Positions 27,993 through 35,791 of a stretch of DNA of 64,000 nt are shown here, one piece after another. The number at the start of each line of letters is the position of its first letter. Within the stretch, counting starts at the first letter, position 1. This DNA is from Rhabditophanes sp. KR3021 (lineage: Eukaryota > Nematoda > Chromadorea > Rhabditida > Alloionematidae), in NCBI GenBank assembly GCA_963281155.1, contig CAUJLY010000002.1, positions 7,316,001 through 7,380,000 of the forward strand, read 5' to 3'. Below the pieces are notes generated by a model that saw only the letters and a list, made by a program, of their open reading frames with translations, did no database searches and had not been told where the DNA came from. The position numbers and the translations under genes are program-made.

Positions 27993-28991
27993 TACATTTT
28001 ATGTTGAATTCAATAGTAAAGTATCTAATAGCATGGATTTTACAAATCCATCAACTATCTTTCTTCTTACCGTAAATTAATAAGAGTCATGCTTATTTTC
28101 AGGAAAGTAAATAAGTATTTTTCAGATATACTTAAAAGAATTTAAGAAAATTTCTGTACAATATGACAGAAATGAACAATTTCATGTCTCGATTCATAAC
28201 ACCGATGTGAAATTATAACATAAAGTGCGGAACTAATTCCTCAGTAAATCATTATTGTCATAACTTTTAAAGAAATATATTTTTAATTCGTGCTTACGAC
28301 ATTTTCATTCAATAAAAAATGGTTTAACTTAATCAAAATGGTATCTGTAATTGATTTATTGATAAACTAAACTTTTTTGCTCAATTTCATAATTGGTATC
28401 TGCTAGAAAGCTCATAAAATCTACATACTCTTTGTGGATATTTTGTCCTTCCTTAATATTATTTAATGGGTATTATTTTGTAAAGCAGTTAGTTGTTTAT
28501 GTTCTCCTGATGTTGCCCCGGGCACGTCAACAGTATCATTATAAACATTTAGTACTATATTTACTTGCACTTAAATTAAAATATGTTATGTGAGCAATTA
28601 TTTTTTCAAATTTTATTTCATTATCAAAATATTGAGTGATTATTCATCTGGCTTAGTTGAAAATACACGGAACAGCTTTAACCCACGATAAAACGTAATG
28701 TGCGATTTTGGAATTGTTTAATCTTAGTGATAAATGTTGTATGCTTATTTTCAATAAAAGCATACGTATTTTATTTTCATATTATTTAATAAATGCTCCA
28801 AGTTATCATTTCCTGTTTTAATGATAAATTGAATACAATTACTGTTTTAATACTTTTAAAGTGTACATTTTATTTTTCAGCTTAAACATACATTTGGCAT
28901 AAGGAAGTTCTTTTATAAATAAAACAGTTTGATACAAAATATACTATATGACTGTTTAAAAATTACGTATTTGAAATAAGTTTACTTAATA
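27993..28991. other. Intergenic, no supported gene
   Basis: About 1 kb between the receptor pseudogene and the intact receptor; it probably includes the receptor promoter and may hold the eroded 3' half of the pseudogene, though I cannot align it by eye. No RNA gene or repeat that I can support. Confidence 0.45.
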
Positions 28992-30035
28992 ATGATTGAA
29001 TTTATTCTAACACCAAGTTATTTAAAAGAATACTACTCGTGTGATCAGTTAACTGAAGAAGAATGGGAAGCAGAGAAAAGACCGAGCCTCATAATTGGTT
29101 TAACATACATAATCTTGGGATCTATATTCTTGATTGTTTATATTCCTATAATTATTATTTTGTCTAGAAAAGAGTTTTTGGAAAAGTCTTCCTGTTATTC
29201 AATTATGTTGATATTATCAATATTGGATTCACTTGCCTTGTGTATCAATGGTTTGTGTTATGGATGTCTAGCAATACGGGGAGATATTCTGTGTACATCA
29301 TATTTTATTATATATTTTACTGGATTCGCAGCTTTAATTTGTTGGTATTCTTGCACAACATTATGTGTCTTATTAGCTCTCAATAGATTTCTGGAATCTA
29401 CCAATCAAAATTTAGCAGCATTCTTCTTTGAGGGTAAAAAAATAGTGTTTTGGTTGAATGCGATTATATTGTATAGTTTGTTAATGGGACTATTTTTTCT
29501 TCCACTTTTGTTTAATGGAAAATATAAGACTGTCATTTTCGATCCATATTTAGATATACCTAAATACCATGTCGAGCATCCTGAACATTATAAACCTGAT
29601 CTTGTTACTTTTCATTCCATTTCCATAAGTATAATTTTGCCTTTACTATATGGGGCCATATGTACTCATTTTTTCTTAAAATACAAAACAATTACCTCAA
29701 ATGAGCAGTTAACAAAATCACAAAAATCATTATTAACTCAAAGTTTTTTGATATGTTTTGCAACTTTTGTTACATGTGTATTTTATGTAAGTTTACATTT
29801 ATATTTTATAATTTGATATTCTTAGACATACTTTTCATATTTTCCTGCAACTGAAACAACTTCAATTGTGGCACATATGATGTGGATATGCTCAAACGGC
29901 TTGGGATCATTTGTTCTTGCTTTTATCAATCCAACAATACGGAAATGTATTTGGAAAAATTTAATCAAAAATGGAATGAATATATGCAAAAGAAAATCTA
30001 AAATAGCTATAATATTACCGTCAAAGACTAAATAA
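28992..30035 (+). CDS. Srt-type nematode serpentine (7TM) chemoreceptor
   Basis: Exons 28992-29786 and 29826-30035 with a 39-nt GT-AG intron; 334 residues. The N-terminus 'YYSCDQLTEEEWEAEKRPSL' followed by 'IIGLTYIILGSIFLIVYIPI' matches the start of the Srt family, where Y-x-C-x...E-W precedes TM1. Seven hydrophobic segments can be counted. TM2 begins 'CYSIMLILSILDSLALCING', TM3 has 'CTTLCVLLALNRFLES' in the DRY position (here LNRF), and TM7 has 'FVLAFINPTIRKCIWK' like the NPxxR end of the family. The C-tail is short and basic. Nematode Srt receptors are putative chemosensory GPCRs in ciliated neurons; the ligand is unknown. A dead paralog lies 1 kb upstream. Confidence 0.88.
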
Positions 30036-30396: not shown

Positions 30397-30697
30397 AAAT
30401 TGACTGGCTATGGTCCAAGAAGTATCTAGTAAAAGAATCCTAGTTGGATGGCAATACAATCTGATGGCTCCTCCTTGTTCTAAGCCGATGCTCATTTCTG
30501 TTTCTCCAAATTGATGTCCTTTCCCACGCTGGTGAAATATGTGCTTTTTACTACATTTAAGTCAATATCTCAGAATCCACATGCGCTGGAAGTTTGCCAT
30601 AATAATCATTAGATTCCCCTTCAAAAACTAAATCTAATGAGACCAAGAAACCTTCCAGACACAAGCCCATCAGACAGGAGGAACACGCAAAACAAGA
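30397..30697 (-). pseudogene. Unidentified coding relic next to the transposon
   Basis: On the minus strand one frame reads 'LVFEGESNDYYGKLPAHVDS' before a stop at 30557, and the next frame continues 'HIFHQRGKGHQFGETEMSIG' then 'LEQGGAIRLYCHPTRILLLD' to a stop near 30397. The composition (H, C, G, R, W in AT-rich surroundings) is protein-like and unlike flanking DNA. The pieces seem to belong together but are offset by a frameshift. I cannot name the source protein. It may be a relic of a host gene or of an older mobile element. Confidence 0.4.
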
Positions 30698-31060
30698 CCT
30701 TTAAAATATTTTTTCAAATTTTTGTAAATACATGTGTTTTTTATGTTATTAAACGTCAGAATAAAATAGAATCCTTTAAATCTATTTAAAATCAGATTTT
30801 TGTGCACGAAAAAACCGTTATATTGCATCATCACAAGTAGTTATAGAGGTATTGACACAAAGTGCAACTAAAGGTAAAAATATCAAATTGTACTAAGTTG
30901 GGAAATTGTGCATGTTCAAACTTGCTCACAATGTGTTTGAATGCTTACACTGATGAAGAGCGAACACAAATTTAAGGTATACCAGGTCGTAATTGGTCAC
31001 ATATTTTTGTTCTTGGTTTACTGGGTATAGGTGCAGAATCAAGGCCCACAGCTCCTCAAA

Positions 31061-31178
31061 TAAAAAGAAATTTAAAAATCGGCTTGCTAGCAATTCTTTA
31101 GTTTTTCATGGGCTTTCTAATGCATATTATTGTAAAACAATCAGTGAGATCCCCGAGGACGAGTTCTAATTTTAAGGT
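31061..31178 (+). repeat. Left terminal inverted repeat of the transposon
   Basis: Contains 'AATCGGCTTGCTAGCAATT' and 'ATGGGCTTTCTAATGCATA' and ends near 'CGAGTTCTAATTTTAAG'. The reverse complement of 33682-33801 has the same blocks in the same order and spacing. Confidence 0.85.
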
Positions 31179-31571
31179 CAAAATTTGTTATTTTACGTGT
31201 TTTAGTGTATTTTTGTTAATTAAAGTTTGTTGGAAGTCGTATATTTCGAATATTAATGTTAAGAAGGCTGTAATATAATTATTAATGCTTATTATTTGAA
31301 TTATGCTTCATCTAAATACTAGTAATGAAGCCTATTTCTCATAACAGATCAGTTGATTTAAACTATGTTTTGCGTATTTATTGTCGTCACAATCGCTCTT
31401 ATCCTGGTCCATTCCTGACTTCCCTCTAGAATCCCCCAAGGACCTTATCATCTCCATAAACAATTAGACCTTTAGCATATTACCCAATTAATGTTCCGCT
31501 TGTCCATCATTATTCATTTCATTTATGAATTGTTTCATCCAATTTTAACTCATATTTTTTGTACTTTCAAG

Positions 31572-33332
31572 ATGTCTCCTGAAAAGAAGAGAAGTAACGC
31601 TTCAAGAAGAAACCTCAATACTGCAAACGTTCAGCAGGAGGTTACTAGACAGTCTCAAGCTGCAAGAGTTAAGGAAGAACTAAGAAAATTGCGAGCTCAG
31701 CGCATCAAAGACAAAACTCTAATTATGTCTTTATCAACAAGAGTGAAAAGTCAGAAGAAACAACTGAAGGAGTGCGAATACAAAGGCCCTTACAAAGTCT
31801 TTCATACCAACATGAGAAGATCGCCTTACAAAGAGCTTGGAGTGTCGGCAAGATTCGATCGTATCAAATTTTGGATGGGAATTCTGAAGGAAATGAACGC
31901 TGGATCAGATCTCTGCTTTGAAGCACGTGATGAGCTTGCCACAAGATTGTTGAAAGGATTTGAGGAAGAAGACAACGTTCGGCTCAGTGCCGAGAAGACG
32001 GCTGAGTTTTTCCTGAGCCTCGGAGTTAGTCAAAATAAATTTGAGTTGATTTATCAACTTCTACGGTCTTACAAGATTCCGGTTCCTTTCGCCCCTTACT
32101 CAAGTTTCCTCAAGTTTATTCAAGAAACTCCAACTGGTAACTTTGTCACAATTAGAAGAGGAGATAAAATTGGAACAGTATCTTCAGACATCAAAGCCAT
32201 GGTCCAGGAGCGGATTCAACGACTTGGTGATTCAGGAAATTTAGTTTACGAGCAAGTATCTGAAACAGAAATAAAGGTAAAACTTTGCCTAATCGGAGAC
32301 AAAGGAAAGGAGATGACAAAGTTTTGCTTTCAACCCCAAGTTAAGGACAAAAACCATTCATACCAAACTTTGAGTGTTATTGGGTTGTGGCACGGAGACG
32401 ACAGCAGGGATTCTTTGGATCACTTCTTGAATACGAAATACGACAATGAAGAATGTAGGATGCCTAATGGATTGGTAATGGAACAGCTAAAGAACATTGG
32501 GACGATTAAACTGGAAAATGGGATGAAATGTTCCTTTGAATTCATGTTAACAGGAGACTTCCTCTTTATCTACAGTTTCATGGGATTCAAAGGCCAAGCA
32601 TCGAACTTCTTTTGCTACTATTGCAACTTCTACAGTCGTACCAGAGCTGATCCAGCAACCTACCACAAAAACCAAAAGACGCGTTGGAAGGATTTTAGCT
32701 ACAACTGTGAATCAAGATCTATGGCTCATGATGTTGGCTGTGAATTGAAAGAACTTAAGAAAGTCGGTTTTAAGACAAGTCCATTGATGAATATTGAATA
32801 CGGCAACATCCTGATGCCTTTGTTACACATCTTTATGGGAATGACCATGGACACTATTAAGAGACTTGAAGTATTTTTGAGTAATGAGGAAAAAGATGCG
32901 CTGTATGATTGTTTAAAGGAGATAGGAATAAGAGTAAGAGAATATTGGGAAGCAGTTAGTGGAAATGGAGTTAACAAAATTATGAAGAATATTGAAAAGT
33001 TTTTGCAAATATTACCGGACAGAAACATCATTAAAGACATCAAGGCAATTCTCAAGCAAATCTCGCAAGTCTACTCTTTAATTTTTGAAGCTAAACTGGA
33101 AGACGAAATGAAGTTGGAGGAAGCTTTGGATGGTTTGGCTGATGCTTTTATGTGTGGTACTTTTTCGAAAGACTACAACATAACACCAAAAGCTCATACC
33201 TTAGTCTGTCATGCTATTGAGCAATTAAAATTACATGGCACACTTATGTTGTTTTCAGAGCAAGGCCAGGAAGCTCTTCACAACATCATGAACAAGGATC
33301 TCTCCGAATTCAGTCGATGCCTTCTATTGTAA
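31572..33332 (+). CDS. Transposase-like protein of the TIR element
   Basis: Intronless frame of 586 residues; ATG 31572 (MSPEKKRSNASRRN) is preferred over an upstream in-frame ATG (31491) that would add a hydrophobic stretch unlike the rest. The N-terminal ~70 residues are basic with a predicted coiled coil ('EELRKLRAQRIKDKTLIM'). The middle has 'LTGDFLFIYSFMGFKGQ' followed by a CxxC pair in 'FFCYYCNFY' and 'TRWKDFSYNCESR', and the C-terminal part has 'TPKAHTLVCHAIEQLKLHG' with 'FSEQGQEALHNIMNKDLSEF'. The G-D-x(n)-G...C-x2-C pattern and the late K-x-H...SEQ-x2-E-x2-H block recall cysteine-containing RNase H-like transposases and their domesticated relatives in invertebrates. The aspartate in 'GDF' and the glutamate in 'SEQGQE' are candidate catalytic acids. 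This is an inference; the superfamily was not recognised. Confidence 0.7.
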   Translation: MSPEKKRSNASRRNLNTANVQQEVTRQSQAARVKEELRKLRAQRIKDKTLIMSLSTRVKSQKKQLKECEYKGPYKVFHTNMRRSPYKELGVSARFDRIKFWMGILKEMNAGSDLCFEARDELATRLLKGFEEEDNVRLSAEKTAEFFLSLGVSQNKFELIYQLLRSYKIPVPFAPYSSFLKFIQETPTGNFVTIRRGDKIGTVSSDIKAMVQERIQRLGDSGNLVYEQVSETEIKVKLCLIGDKGKEMTKFCFQPQVKDKNHSYQTLSVIGLWHGDDSRDSLDHFLNTKYDNEECRMPNGLVMEQLKNIGTIKLENGMKCSFEFMLTGDFLFIYSFMGFKGQASNFFCYYCNFYSRTRADPATYHKNQKTRWKDFSYNCESRSMAHDVGCELKELKKVGFKTSPLMNIEYGNILMPLLHIFMGMTMDTIKRLEVFLSNEEKDALYDCLKEIGIRVREYWEAVSGNGVNKIMKNIEKFLQILPDRNIIKDIKAILKQISQVYSLIFEAKLEDEMKLEEALDGLADAFMCGTFSKDYNITPKAHTLVCHAIEQLKLHGTLMLFSEQGQEALHNIMNKDLSEFSRCLLL

Positions 33333-33681
33333 ACCAACTTGATTTACTTATCCGTTTCCATTCTATGCGGGTTCTTTTGTTTGATAATAAATTACGATTA
33401 TAAATATATTTTCCTTTTATTTTCTTTTAAAAACATTTAATTATGCTTTTGATGTTCTTTAATAAGCAATTATATTCAAATATTATTCGAATAAGAGATA
33501 GTTTTTTAAAAATACGACAATACTCGTGTCTAAAATATTAAATATAACCATTGCAAAGGTAAATAAATGCAATGAAACGAGAGTCCAACACTGGCTTACA
33601 TAGCTTAAAACGTTATATGTAAGAATAATTGATAAATTCACAAAAATATCAAAATACTAAAATAAAATATTCATGTTTTTT

Positions 33682-33801
33682 CTTAAAATTAGAACTCGTC
33701 CTCGGCGGCCCCATCGATTGTTTTACAATAATATGCATTAGAAAGCCCATAAAAAACTAAACAATTGCTAGCAAGCCGATTTTTAAATTTCGCTTTTTAA
33801 A
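33682..33801 (-). repeat. Right terminal inverted repeat of the transposon
   Basis: Inverted copy of 31061-31178, recognisable from 'CTTAAAATTAGAACTCG' through 'AATTGCTAGCAAGCCGATT'. Outside it, 'TCTGGTAC' blocks occur at about 33804 and 33934, suggesting an internal duplication or a longer, more eroded arm. Confidence 0.85.
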
Positions 33802-34820
33802 GTCTGGTACTGATACCAAATATCTCAAGGGTCATTCTATAATAACAATGTTTCAGAAAAGTCACATGTAGCCCAATGTGAGCATCATGAAAACCTTTTC
33901 TATTTATACCAAATTAGAGCTGAGGATAAGGGCTTCAATCTGGTACAGATATATTGAAAATTGATCCTTCTACTAAAAAGTTATAAGCCAAACAGTAACA
34001 TTATTTTTTTTGTTAAAATTATCACTATATATATTTTGTCATAGTGGGGTGGGCACTGTGCTAAAAAGGACATGTTATTAGTCAAAATGAAGCACTTAAA
34101 AAACTGAACAAGATGGTTAAAACAGATTGATTAAAGATAGATTAAAACGTTTAAAATAAATTATTTAGTACCATAGGCATAGGTGGTCTTAGGGCTGGGG
34201 AACCCCATGTGCATGTTCGTGATAGGAAATGATACGTTTATCTTATTTATCATGTTTAAAAATGGTTAGAACACTAATACAGCATATATAACACGATCCT
34301 GCTTAAATGTAGTGACTTCACCAGCGTGTTCCATACTATATCCCAGGTCTTCTACTTATTCTTTAAAAAGGAGATGGTTCATTACAATATGTGGTAGTGT
34401 TGTCTCAAGATATCGTTGAAGATTGATCTTGGTGGTGTGAGAAAGTAATTGAGGTTGGTGCAGAAGAGAGATATCTAGAAAGCAAGAGAAACAACAAATT
34501 ATGACAAAATATGAGCCATTAAGTATATTTTATTTGATCCAAACATTAAAAACTCACTTTACCAGTTGCAATAATCTATTAATAACGTACGTCCACCCAT
34601 TCAGTTATTGAAAATACACTTTTCTATTCTCTCAATCTATCAACTTCCAAAGGCAATAAAGGTAATTAAAATAGTTCGAAATACTTTATTTGTAAAAGGA
34701 AATGTAAACATTTAAAGATATATCAAGACTGTAAATGGTATAACAAATAATTAAATGAACTCCACTTTTATAGTTTATTACATACAAATTGCCTACACAA
34801 ATATAAAAAATAAGTTACAA
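33802..34820. other. Intergenic, no supported gene
   Basis: Between the transposon and the 3' end of ORAI. The first ~200 nt may still be transposon-related, because eroded 'TGGTA' and 'CTCAGCTC'-like blocks are shared with the flank of the left arm. The rest is AT-rich with no supported exon. Confidence 0.45.
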
Positions 34821-35791
34821 TCACACCACCTTGACAACATTCTTCATCTCAACCATTTCCCCCTGACTCTGCAAGTCATGGTGAATGGAAGAGTTCGGAC
34901 TGATATCAAACATCTGCCGCGACATATCTCCTCTTAGCAAAGGATTTCCCACAAACTGATCAGATTCGGCATCATGCACGTACTGTTCGATGCCATCCAT
35001 CTTCGAATGAGCTCTTTCCATCGAGTGGGACATTCTATTTTTGTGAATTAAACATGAAAAAACGATGAATATGACAAACACTGGTACCAGAATAGCTGCT
35101 GTTATATAAGCTGCTGGTAGGTAGTGAACTGCATCGAACTTCACAAATAGAATAACTTCAATTTCTACCAAAAACAGCAGTAGACCAATGCAGGTCGAAA
35201 AAAACCATGATAATTCGATGTAAAACCTGAAATTACAAAAGTATATTAAAAGTTCTTTTTTTGGAGTAATTACTTTAATCGTTTGTGGGGAGAATCTTTA
35301 GTGCAACCATTTGCTTCGATATAAGGTAAGATGCAAGTTGACATCATAAGGGCTAGCAAATGGACGGAAACGAGTAAAGTTGTCACGACTGCCAAAATGA
35401 TTAATAAAGGTCTTGGCGTTGTTTCTGTGTACTGCAGTTCGACTAATGCAACCATCGCGAAACCAGCCAGCAAGGCACTCGTCCTACTGCTAGCCTTCAA
35501 TTGCGCTCTACTGAGATCGTATAGATACTTTTCCTGAACTGATAATTCTCCATAATGCCTATAAAAAATGAATAAAATGTGATGAACCAAATCAAAAAAC
35601 AAATAGTATTAGTAAATGTCACCTAACTGTTTATAAATAGCCTTAGCATCAAAGTCAGCCCCACCAGGCAATGCATTCTTATTGTTGGTGGCAATAGCTT
35701 CTTGCTGTAACATTTGCTGTAAAATGTCACAATCATTCTGAATTATTTCTCTCTGCGATTGAGGAGACAGACGTGGGTTGGATTTAATCAT
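34821..35791 (-). CDS. orai-1: ORAI store-operated calcium channel subunit
   Basis: Exons 35791-35628, 35558-35274 and 35226-34821; introns 69 and 47 nt; 284 residues. The first intron uses the donor CA|GTTAGG, which alone keeps the frame into '[19 protein letters not shown]'. The core '[20 protein letters not shown]' is the most conserved ORAI block: TM1 with the selectivity-filter glutamate in 'VELQ' (near residue 92) and the preceding basic 'SRTSALL' region. TM2 ends '[15 protein letters not shown]', then '[20 protein letters not shown]' leads into TM3, and TM4 is '[19 protein letters not shown]'. The C-terminal helix continues '[16 protein letters not shown]', the STIM-binding position. 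ORAI forms the plasma-membrane CRAC pore opened by STIM when ER calcium falls. The TM3-TM4 loop is short, and the N-terminus is Gln-rich. Confidence 0.93.

Follow-up and report, generated by a model that had tools for sequence, protein, structure and literature searches.

A probable Chapaev-type DUF1280 transposon in the nematode Rhabditophanes diutinus, with bipartite ends offset by about one helical turn

A transposon of about 3.8 kb (3804 bp, positions 30525-34328, gene on the + strand) is present in the window, the whole stretch of 64,000 nucleotides that was analysed (C2:7316001-7380000). It is very probably a cut-and-paste element of the CACTA-Mirage-Chapaev-Transib (CMCT) group, belonging to the DUF1280 (Chapaev) lineage and moving by the mechanism proposed below. 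Beyond a 12-bp tip that begins with CAC, both ends of each element of this type share a second block, which lies closer to the tip at one end; the two spacings are about one helical turn apart, as in the 12/23 recombination signal sequences (RSSs). The host, R. diutinus KR3021, is described as a free-living, parthenogenetic nematode (PMC7738172) with a v.2 assembly of 44.8 Mb (PMC10676810); the genome searched comprised 44.8 Mb in six contigs. The insertion lies on contig C2 between two convergent genes, an Srt chemoreceptor (28980-29813, +) and Orai (34824-35608, -), which is where the initial annotation had placed it. That annotation had also described a transposon with terminal inverted repeats carrying a transposase gene, and this is borne out by the CAC...GTG ends, the target-site duplication (TSD), the further copies and the protein motifs.

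The limits of the element are set by the points at which homology with a second long copy, on contig C5, stops on both sides, and by perfect 12-bp CACGCTGGTGAA inverted repeats, which terminate both copies. The termini are thus of the 5'-CAC...GTG-3' kind that characterises Chapaev and the CMCT group. Comparison of the flanks of copies, proposed earlier as the way to the termini and the TSD, gave 30525 and 34328 as termini and TTCC as the duplication, which flanks the element exactly at both sides (4/4 positions agree at 4 bp, 3/5 at 5 bp) and has a length within the 3-4 bp usual for Chapaev and the CMCT group. The exact 12-bp end is found at nine sites in the genome, vs one for the reversed control, and eight of the nine are the ends of four two-ended elements. 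The features of the element outside the gene are as follows:

30525..34328, + strand: whole element, delimited by the extent of its homology to the C5 copy and by the 12-bp inverted ends
30521..30524, no strand: left TSD, TTCC, exact match of flanks
34329..34332, no strand: right TSD, TTCC, exact match of flanks
30525..30536, + strand: long-spacer end, terminal block CACGCTGGTGAA
30550..30561, + strand: long end, second block ACTACATTTAAG, bases 26-37 from the terminus
34302..34313, - strand: short end, second block ACTACATTTAAG, bases 16-27 from the terminus, 10 bp closer to the tip
34317..34328, - strand: short-spacer end, terminal block CACGCTGGTGAA read inward
31062..31195, + strand: left subterminal inverted arm, 116/134 identical to the right arm
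33663..33796, - strand: right subterminal inverted arm, pairing with the left arm over 134 nt

Inverted arms had been annotated as near-identical over about 118 bp. They exist, but they are 134 nt long and less alike, and the stretch first described is 91.5% identical (8 mismatches, 1 gap). The arms were rejected as termini, since the C5 copy is homologous far beyond them; the true ends are 537 bp and 532 bp further out. Their identity had also been read as a sign of age, and this clock was rejected because left and right arms within a copy differ more than the same arm does between the window and C5 copies (left 131/134, right 126/133 identical). Two internally deleted copies, C1:1407242 and C1:41808, contain neither arm, so the arms are dispensable in deleted derivatives. 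In an element of a sister family (C1:2435160-2437106, L043) they are partly kept (76-77% over 74-85 bp), and judging from this partial conservation they would be an old component.

The further copies expected in the same genome were found: the C5 copy and several deletion derivatives. The C5 copy (C5:525777-529247) aligns with the window element in two stretches, one of 3371 bp at 97.8% identity and one formed by the last 111 bp at 99.1%; about 340 bp are missing between them. Length differences near 31782 and 33082 break its frame, and it is flanked by 5-bp ATATA, without an exact 4-bp TSD. The derivatives C1:1407242 (1176 bp), C1:41808 and C6:188706 share the internal junction 421/2329; C1:41808 carries also some 1.2 kb of other DNA, and only one end of C6:188706 was seen. 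The flanks of the two C1 derivatives differ at both ends, so the deleted form has moved; neither has an exact 4-bp duplication. C1:1407242 shows 11 differences in 1188 bp to the window copy and is nearer to it than the C5 copy is. Recent mobility of the window element, claimed in the initial annotation, is therefore moderately supported (exact TSD, identity to the C5 copy, closeness of C1:1407242), whereas calling it 'young' and its gene 'intact' goes too far. Neither long copy of the family looks fully coding now, so further movement would need transposase made elsewhere.

Between the two long copies, 9/1728 coding sites differ, vs 30/1045 in the adjoining 5' noncoding part (Fisher 8e-7); on the 3' side, as far as the right arm, 12/493 differ. 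Divergence in the coding part (31572-33301) is roughly one fifth of that in the 5' noncoding part, and synonymous changes are not in excess. Purifying selection on the two copies was rejected because six of the eight changed codons are nonsynonymous; the low coding divergence suggests a gene-conversion tract, which fits better. The gene model P0003 (Rhabditophanes sp. KR3021), named for DDE_3, includes the N-terminal part of the transposase of the C5 copy and is apparently a mis-annotation across neighbouring transposons.

Concerning the transposase, the annotated intronless frame of 586 codons is open, but whether it is intact is doubtful: it runs to 33332, and from about 33302 it departs from the tail common to P0001, P0002 and the C5 copy (alternatively, this may be an assembly error). 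The protein had been left without a superfamily; the profile search proposed at that time makes it recognisable as DUF1280 (PF06918, residues 123-287, 50.8 bits vs a curated cut-off of 25), that is, as Chapaev. Between the second D and the E of the DDE triad it has the C(2)C, LH and H(4)H motifs of the CMCT group, and the late K-x-H...SEQ-x2-E-x2-H block noticed earlier holds part of H(4)H and the putative catalytic E. The positions in the gene, all on the + strand, are:

31572..33332: transposase frame, 586 codons (alternative ATG at 31491, giving 613 codons)
32298..32300: putative first catalytic D (D243, GDKG), conserved in every row of the 12-row alignment
32556..32558: putative second catalytic D (D329, TGD), invariant in the alignment
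32613..32624: C(2)C motif (C348, C351), from the alignment
32826..32828: LH motif (H419)
33195..33212: H(4)H motif (H542, H547)
33258..33260: putative catalytic E (E563, FSEQG)
33302..33332: final codons, no longer in register with the C-terminal tail that is conserved among the relatives (aligned: P0001, P0002, C5 copy)

The N-terminus (residues 1-133) is a basic coiled coil. No Chapa zinc-finger domain was seen in these residues (2 Cys, 1 His) or in the corresponding region of P0001 (1 Cys, 2 His). Among unspliced frames, only one of at least 80 aa is found on the + strand of the element; one 109-aa frame lies on the opposite strand, inside the transposase gene. The NCBIfam search with the window protein gave no match. 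Homolog searches, each with about 7,990 candidates scored, returned three proteins for the window protein, three for the profile and five for a distant paralog, all of them named Rhabditophanes sp. KR3021. P0001 and P0002, filed under this name, lie letter for letter within the frames L015 and L013 of the genome; these sister transposases have long open frames. That of P0001, in the element C6:6183694-6186889, is open by nature.

At least 29 DUF1280 matches are found in the genome and none in 14 control genomes. Among these matches, four are on C1, five on C2, six on C5 and 14 on C6, with none on C3 and C4; all six of the C5 contig (2.4 Mb) lie within 446-536 kb, and 11/14 of those on C6 within the first 1.1 Mb. 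A CACSSTGGTGAAAT pattern search with at most one mismatch gave 57 sites, vs 16 for the reversed control. Both ends could be placed for 19 elements of the window's terminus type, which were sorted by eye into seven families. Exact 4-bp TSDs flank five of the 19 (window TTCC, C1:2435160 ACCG, C6:9238083 AAGA, C6:6183694 GAGT and C2:2152399 ATTA), where mismatched flanks give an expectation of 0.22. Matches of 3 bp are at chance (1 seen, 1.0 expected), and one element matches at 5 bp (0.06 expected). Of the elements longer than 1.9 kb, 5/8 have the exact 4-bp TSD. A uniform TSD was not found across the 19: the 14 elements without an exact 4-bp match are mostly MITE-like copies of 0.36-0.55 kb, which are perhaps older or recombined, together with the C5 copy and both two-ended deletion derivatives. 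One 3.5-kb element, C6:320810-324316, has a long end like that of the MITE family and a short end like that of the C6:1004436 family, and is a possible recombinant.

End symmetry was dropped as a description when comparison of the ends showed the second block at unequal depth. The second blocks and the bases at which they begin, at the long and short ends respectively, are:

Window family: ACTACATTTAAG, bases 26 and 16
MITE family: GCATTGTAG, bases 29 and 19
C6:1004436: GGAATTGTA, bases 28 and 18
C6:9238083 (open 644-codon frame): CGGAAGTGTAGCA, bases 27 and 17
C6:6183694 and C2:2152399: TGCATTGTAG, bases 28 and 18
C6:320810: ATTGTA, bases 31 and 21
C4:5168559: TTAAGCAAA, bases 32 and 23

The offset is 10 in 16 elements (six of the seven families) and 9 in three (one family). 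Since the families share ancestry, the repeated offset does not represent seven independent origins. In the window element the block is identical at both ends, and none of 500 shuffles gives one as long; it is longer than in shuffles for 13 of the 16 elements tested (0-12 of 500), and the other three have a 6-nt block that is not significant alone (137-147 of 500). When shifts from 0 to 20 are scanned, family representatives match on average at 8.86/11 positions for shift 10, and no other shift exceeds 5.57. With shuffled ends, at most 3/6 families share a shift in 300 runs, vs 5/6 observed. When long and short ends are paired by family (six families, the better of shifts 9 and 10), the score is 58 vs a permutation mean of 44.2, and as good a pairing occurs in 2/720 permutations, the observed one included. 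The long end is upstream of the gene in 6/6 gene-bearing elements above 3 kb of the window's terminus type (window, C5, C6:320810, C6:9238083, C6:6183694 and C2:2152399).

A further 15 DUF1280 loci were scanned for arms, and the counts given here cover the six with ends placed at both sides, which end in CACACTAA or CACGGTGGTACA. The offset is 11 bp in four of them (L020, L026, L032 and L028) and 0 in two (L021, long/long; L023, short/short). L020 and L021 are copies of one family, as are L026 and L032. In L020 the second block is at 25 and 14 and the TSD is TTTT; in L026 the block is a run of T only. L024 and L023 belong to one family, and between a long end of the former and a short end of the latter the difference is again 11 bp. 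Only L020 has an exact 4-bp duplication (5/6 without), so TSDs do not separate symmetric from asymmetric copies. A fixed orientation of the long end was rejected, since in L020 and L032 it lies on the downstream side of the gene, opposite to the window-type elements.

These observations lead us to propose, tentatively and at somewhat less than even confidence, that the DUF1280/Chapaev transposons of R. diutinus follow a 12/23-type rule of their own, with bipartite CAC signals at two spacings that differ by one helical turn, a RAG1-folded transposase, no RAG2 and a second block co-evolving at both ends. A rival account, which we consider quite possible though a little short of an even chance, is that these are ordinary Chapaev-type transposons with unequal ends frozen after an ancestral indel, the same binding site differing by 10-11 bp in position without any role in pairing. 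Unequal ends are common in transposons, all the families are related, so that one ancestral event could account for many of the rows above, and the symmetric copies L021 and L023 exist. Against this, the blocks have changed between families yet match within them (the permutation result above), and in three kinds of terminus the offset keeps to 9-11 bp. L021 and L023, both without an exact 4-bp TSD, may be recombinants, a weak argument since 3/4 of the asymmetric elements with those termini also have none.

The structure comparison with RNase H-like transposases, suggested in the initial annotation, gave a predicted fold of RAG1/Transib type with an RNase H-like catalytic core, as in the CMCT group. 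Model confidence is middling (pLDDT 63.9 and 67.3), and the best Foldseek matches, RAG1 and HzTransib, superpose loosely (TM 0.31-0.43, rmsd 12-18). PDB sequence searches with the protein and with the 12-row profile gave nothing significant, whereas the fold comparison matched. To our knowledge, the PDB holds no Chapaev transposase structure, so this ranking cannot separate Chapaev from Transib or RAG-like (RAGL) elements. That the element is a Transib or RAGL rather than a Chapaev is improbable: the structural matches and the CAC ends would fit, and some Transibs are described as having asymmetric ends (PMC8355894), but DUF1280 is assigned to Chapaev, the duplications are of 4 bp and not the 5 bp of Transib (five exact at 4 bp, one at 5 bp among 19), and the element has no second unspliced frame of the RAG2L kind that would pair with RAG1L. 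That this is a host gene, domesticated and with repeats beside it by chance, can practically be dismissed: the open frame and the low coding divergence would suit it, but the mostly nonsynonymous changes do not indicate purifying selection, and a full-length copy elsewhere, a TSD and deletion derivatives are present.

Taking the element as a cut-and-paste Chapaev-lineage transposon, with ends, duplications, copies, protein motifs, predicted fold and block geometry as observed, we infer the steps of its movement from RAG1 and Transib. The catalytic core of a transposase dimer would contact the CAC tip, and the basic coiled-coil N-terminus would read the second block; in RAG1 the nonamer-binding domain occupies the corresponding N-terminal place. 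The dimer would pair one long and one short end. Nicking beside CAC would be followed by excision via hairpins on the flanking DNA, as in RAG1 and Transib, and the ends would be joined 4 bp apart in target DNA.

Compared with known systems, the element shares with Chapaev the CAC...GTG ends, the 4-bp TSD, the DDE with C(2)C, LH and H(4)H and the DUF1280 domain. It differs in having no visible Chapa zinc finger, a domain reported for Chapaev and Chapaev3 (PMC4411706) and not among the Chapaev hallmarks in the available text of PMC4079192; we therefore file it as a variant in the DUF1280 lineage, not a typical Chapaev. It differs also in its bipartite ends: no one-turn asymmetry is described for Chapaev in the available text of PMC4079192, PMC4411706, PMC12730594 and PMC3985635. 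We found no literature report of it in DUF1280/Chapaev, or of such elements in Rhabditophanes, in the texts available, although Repbase Reports and older papers may note it. According to a review, some Transibs are the only known case of 12/23-type asymmetry outside V(D)J recombination (PMC8355894). With the 12RSS/23RSS and RAG1 of V(D)J recombination, the nematode element has in common the CAC tip, a second block, spacers about one helical turn apart and the RAG1-type predicted core fold; unlike there, its second block is not a nonamer and changes by family, the offset differs between groups (10 for the window's, 11 for others), no unspliced RAG2-like frame is present and the duplication is of 4 bp. 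Transib (HzTransib) has the same predicted fold, CAC ends and single gene, and a few Transib families have 12/23-like ends; however, Transib duplicates 5 bp (PMC7204232, PMC4411706) and most Transib ends are given as symmetric (PMC8289069). ProtoRAG of amphioxus also has bipartite asymmetric ends, and the asymmetry is reported to matter (PMC8289069), but its spacers are 27/31, RAG2L is present and the TSD is of 5 bp. Invertebrate RAG-like enzymes have also been argued to be rather insensitive to asymmetry (PMC7204232). In the nematode element the asymmetric ends may be important, as in ProtoRAG, or the enzyme may be insensitive to them.

If the proposed rule holds, the one-turn asymmetry on which ordered V(D)J recombination rests would not be peculiar to vertebrate RAG and a few Transibs; it would be a trait of RAG1-fold transposases that either is old or has arisen repeatedly. 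With signals that have diverged, some symmetric copies as exceptions and two sister transposases, this set of related elements would allow the purpose of the one-turn offset, and its need for RAG2, to be addressed. DUF1280, listed in Pfam as a domain of unknown function, gains a predicted fold, signals and a target-site duplication.
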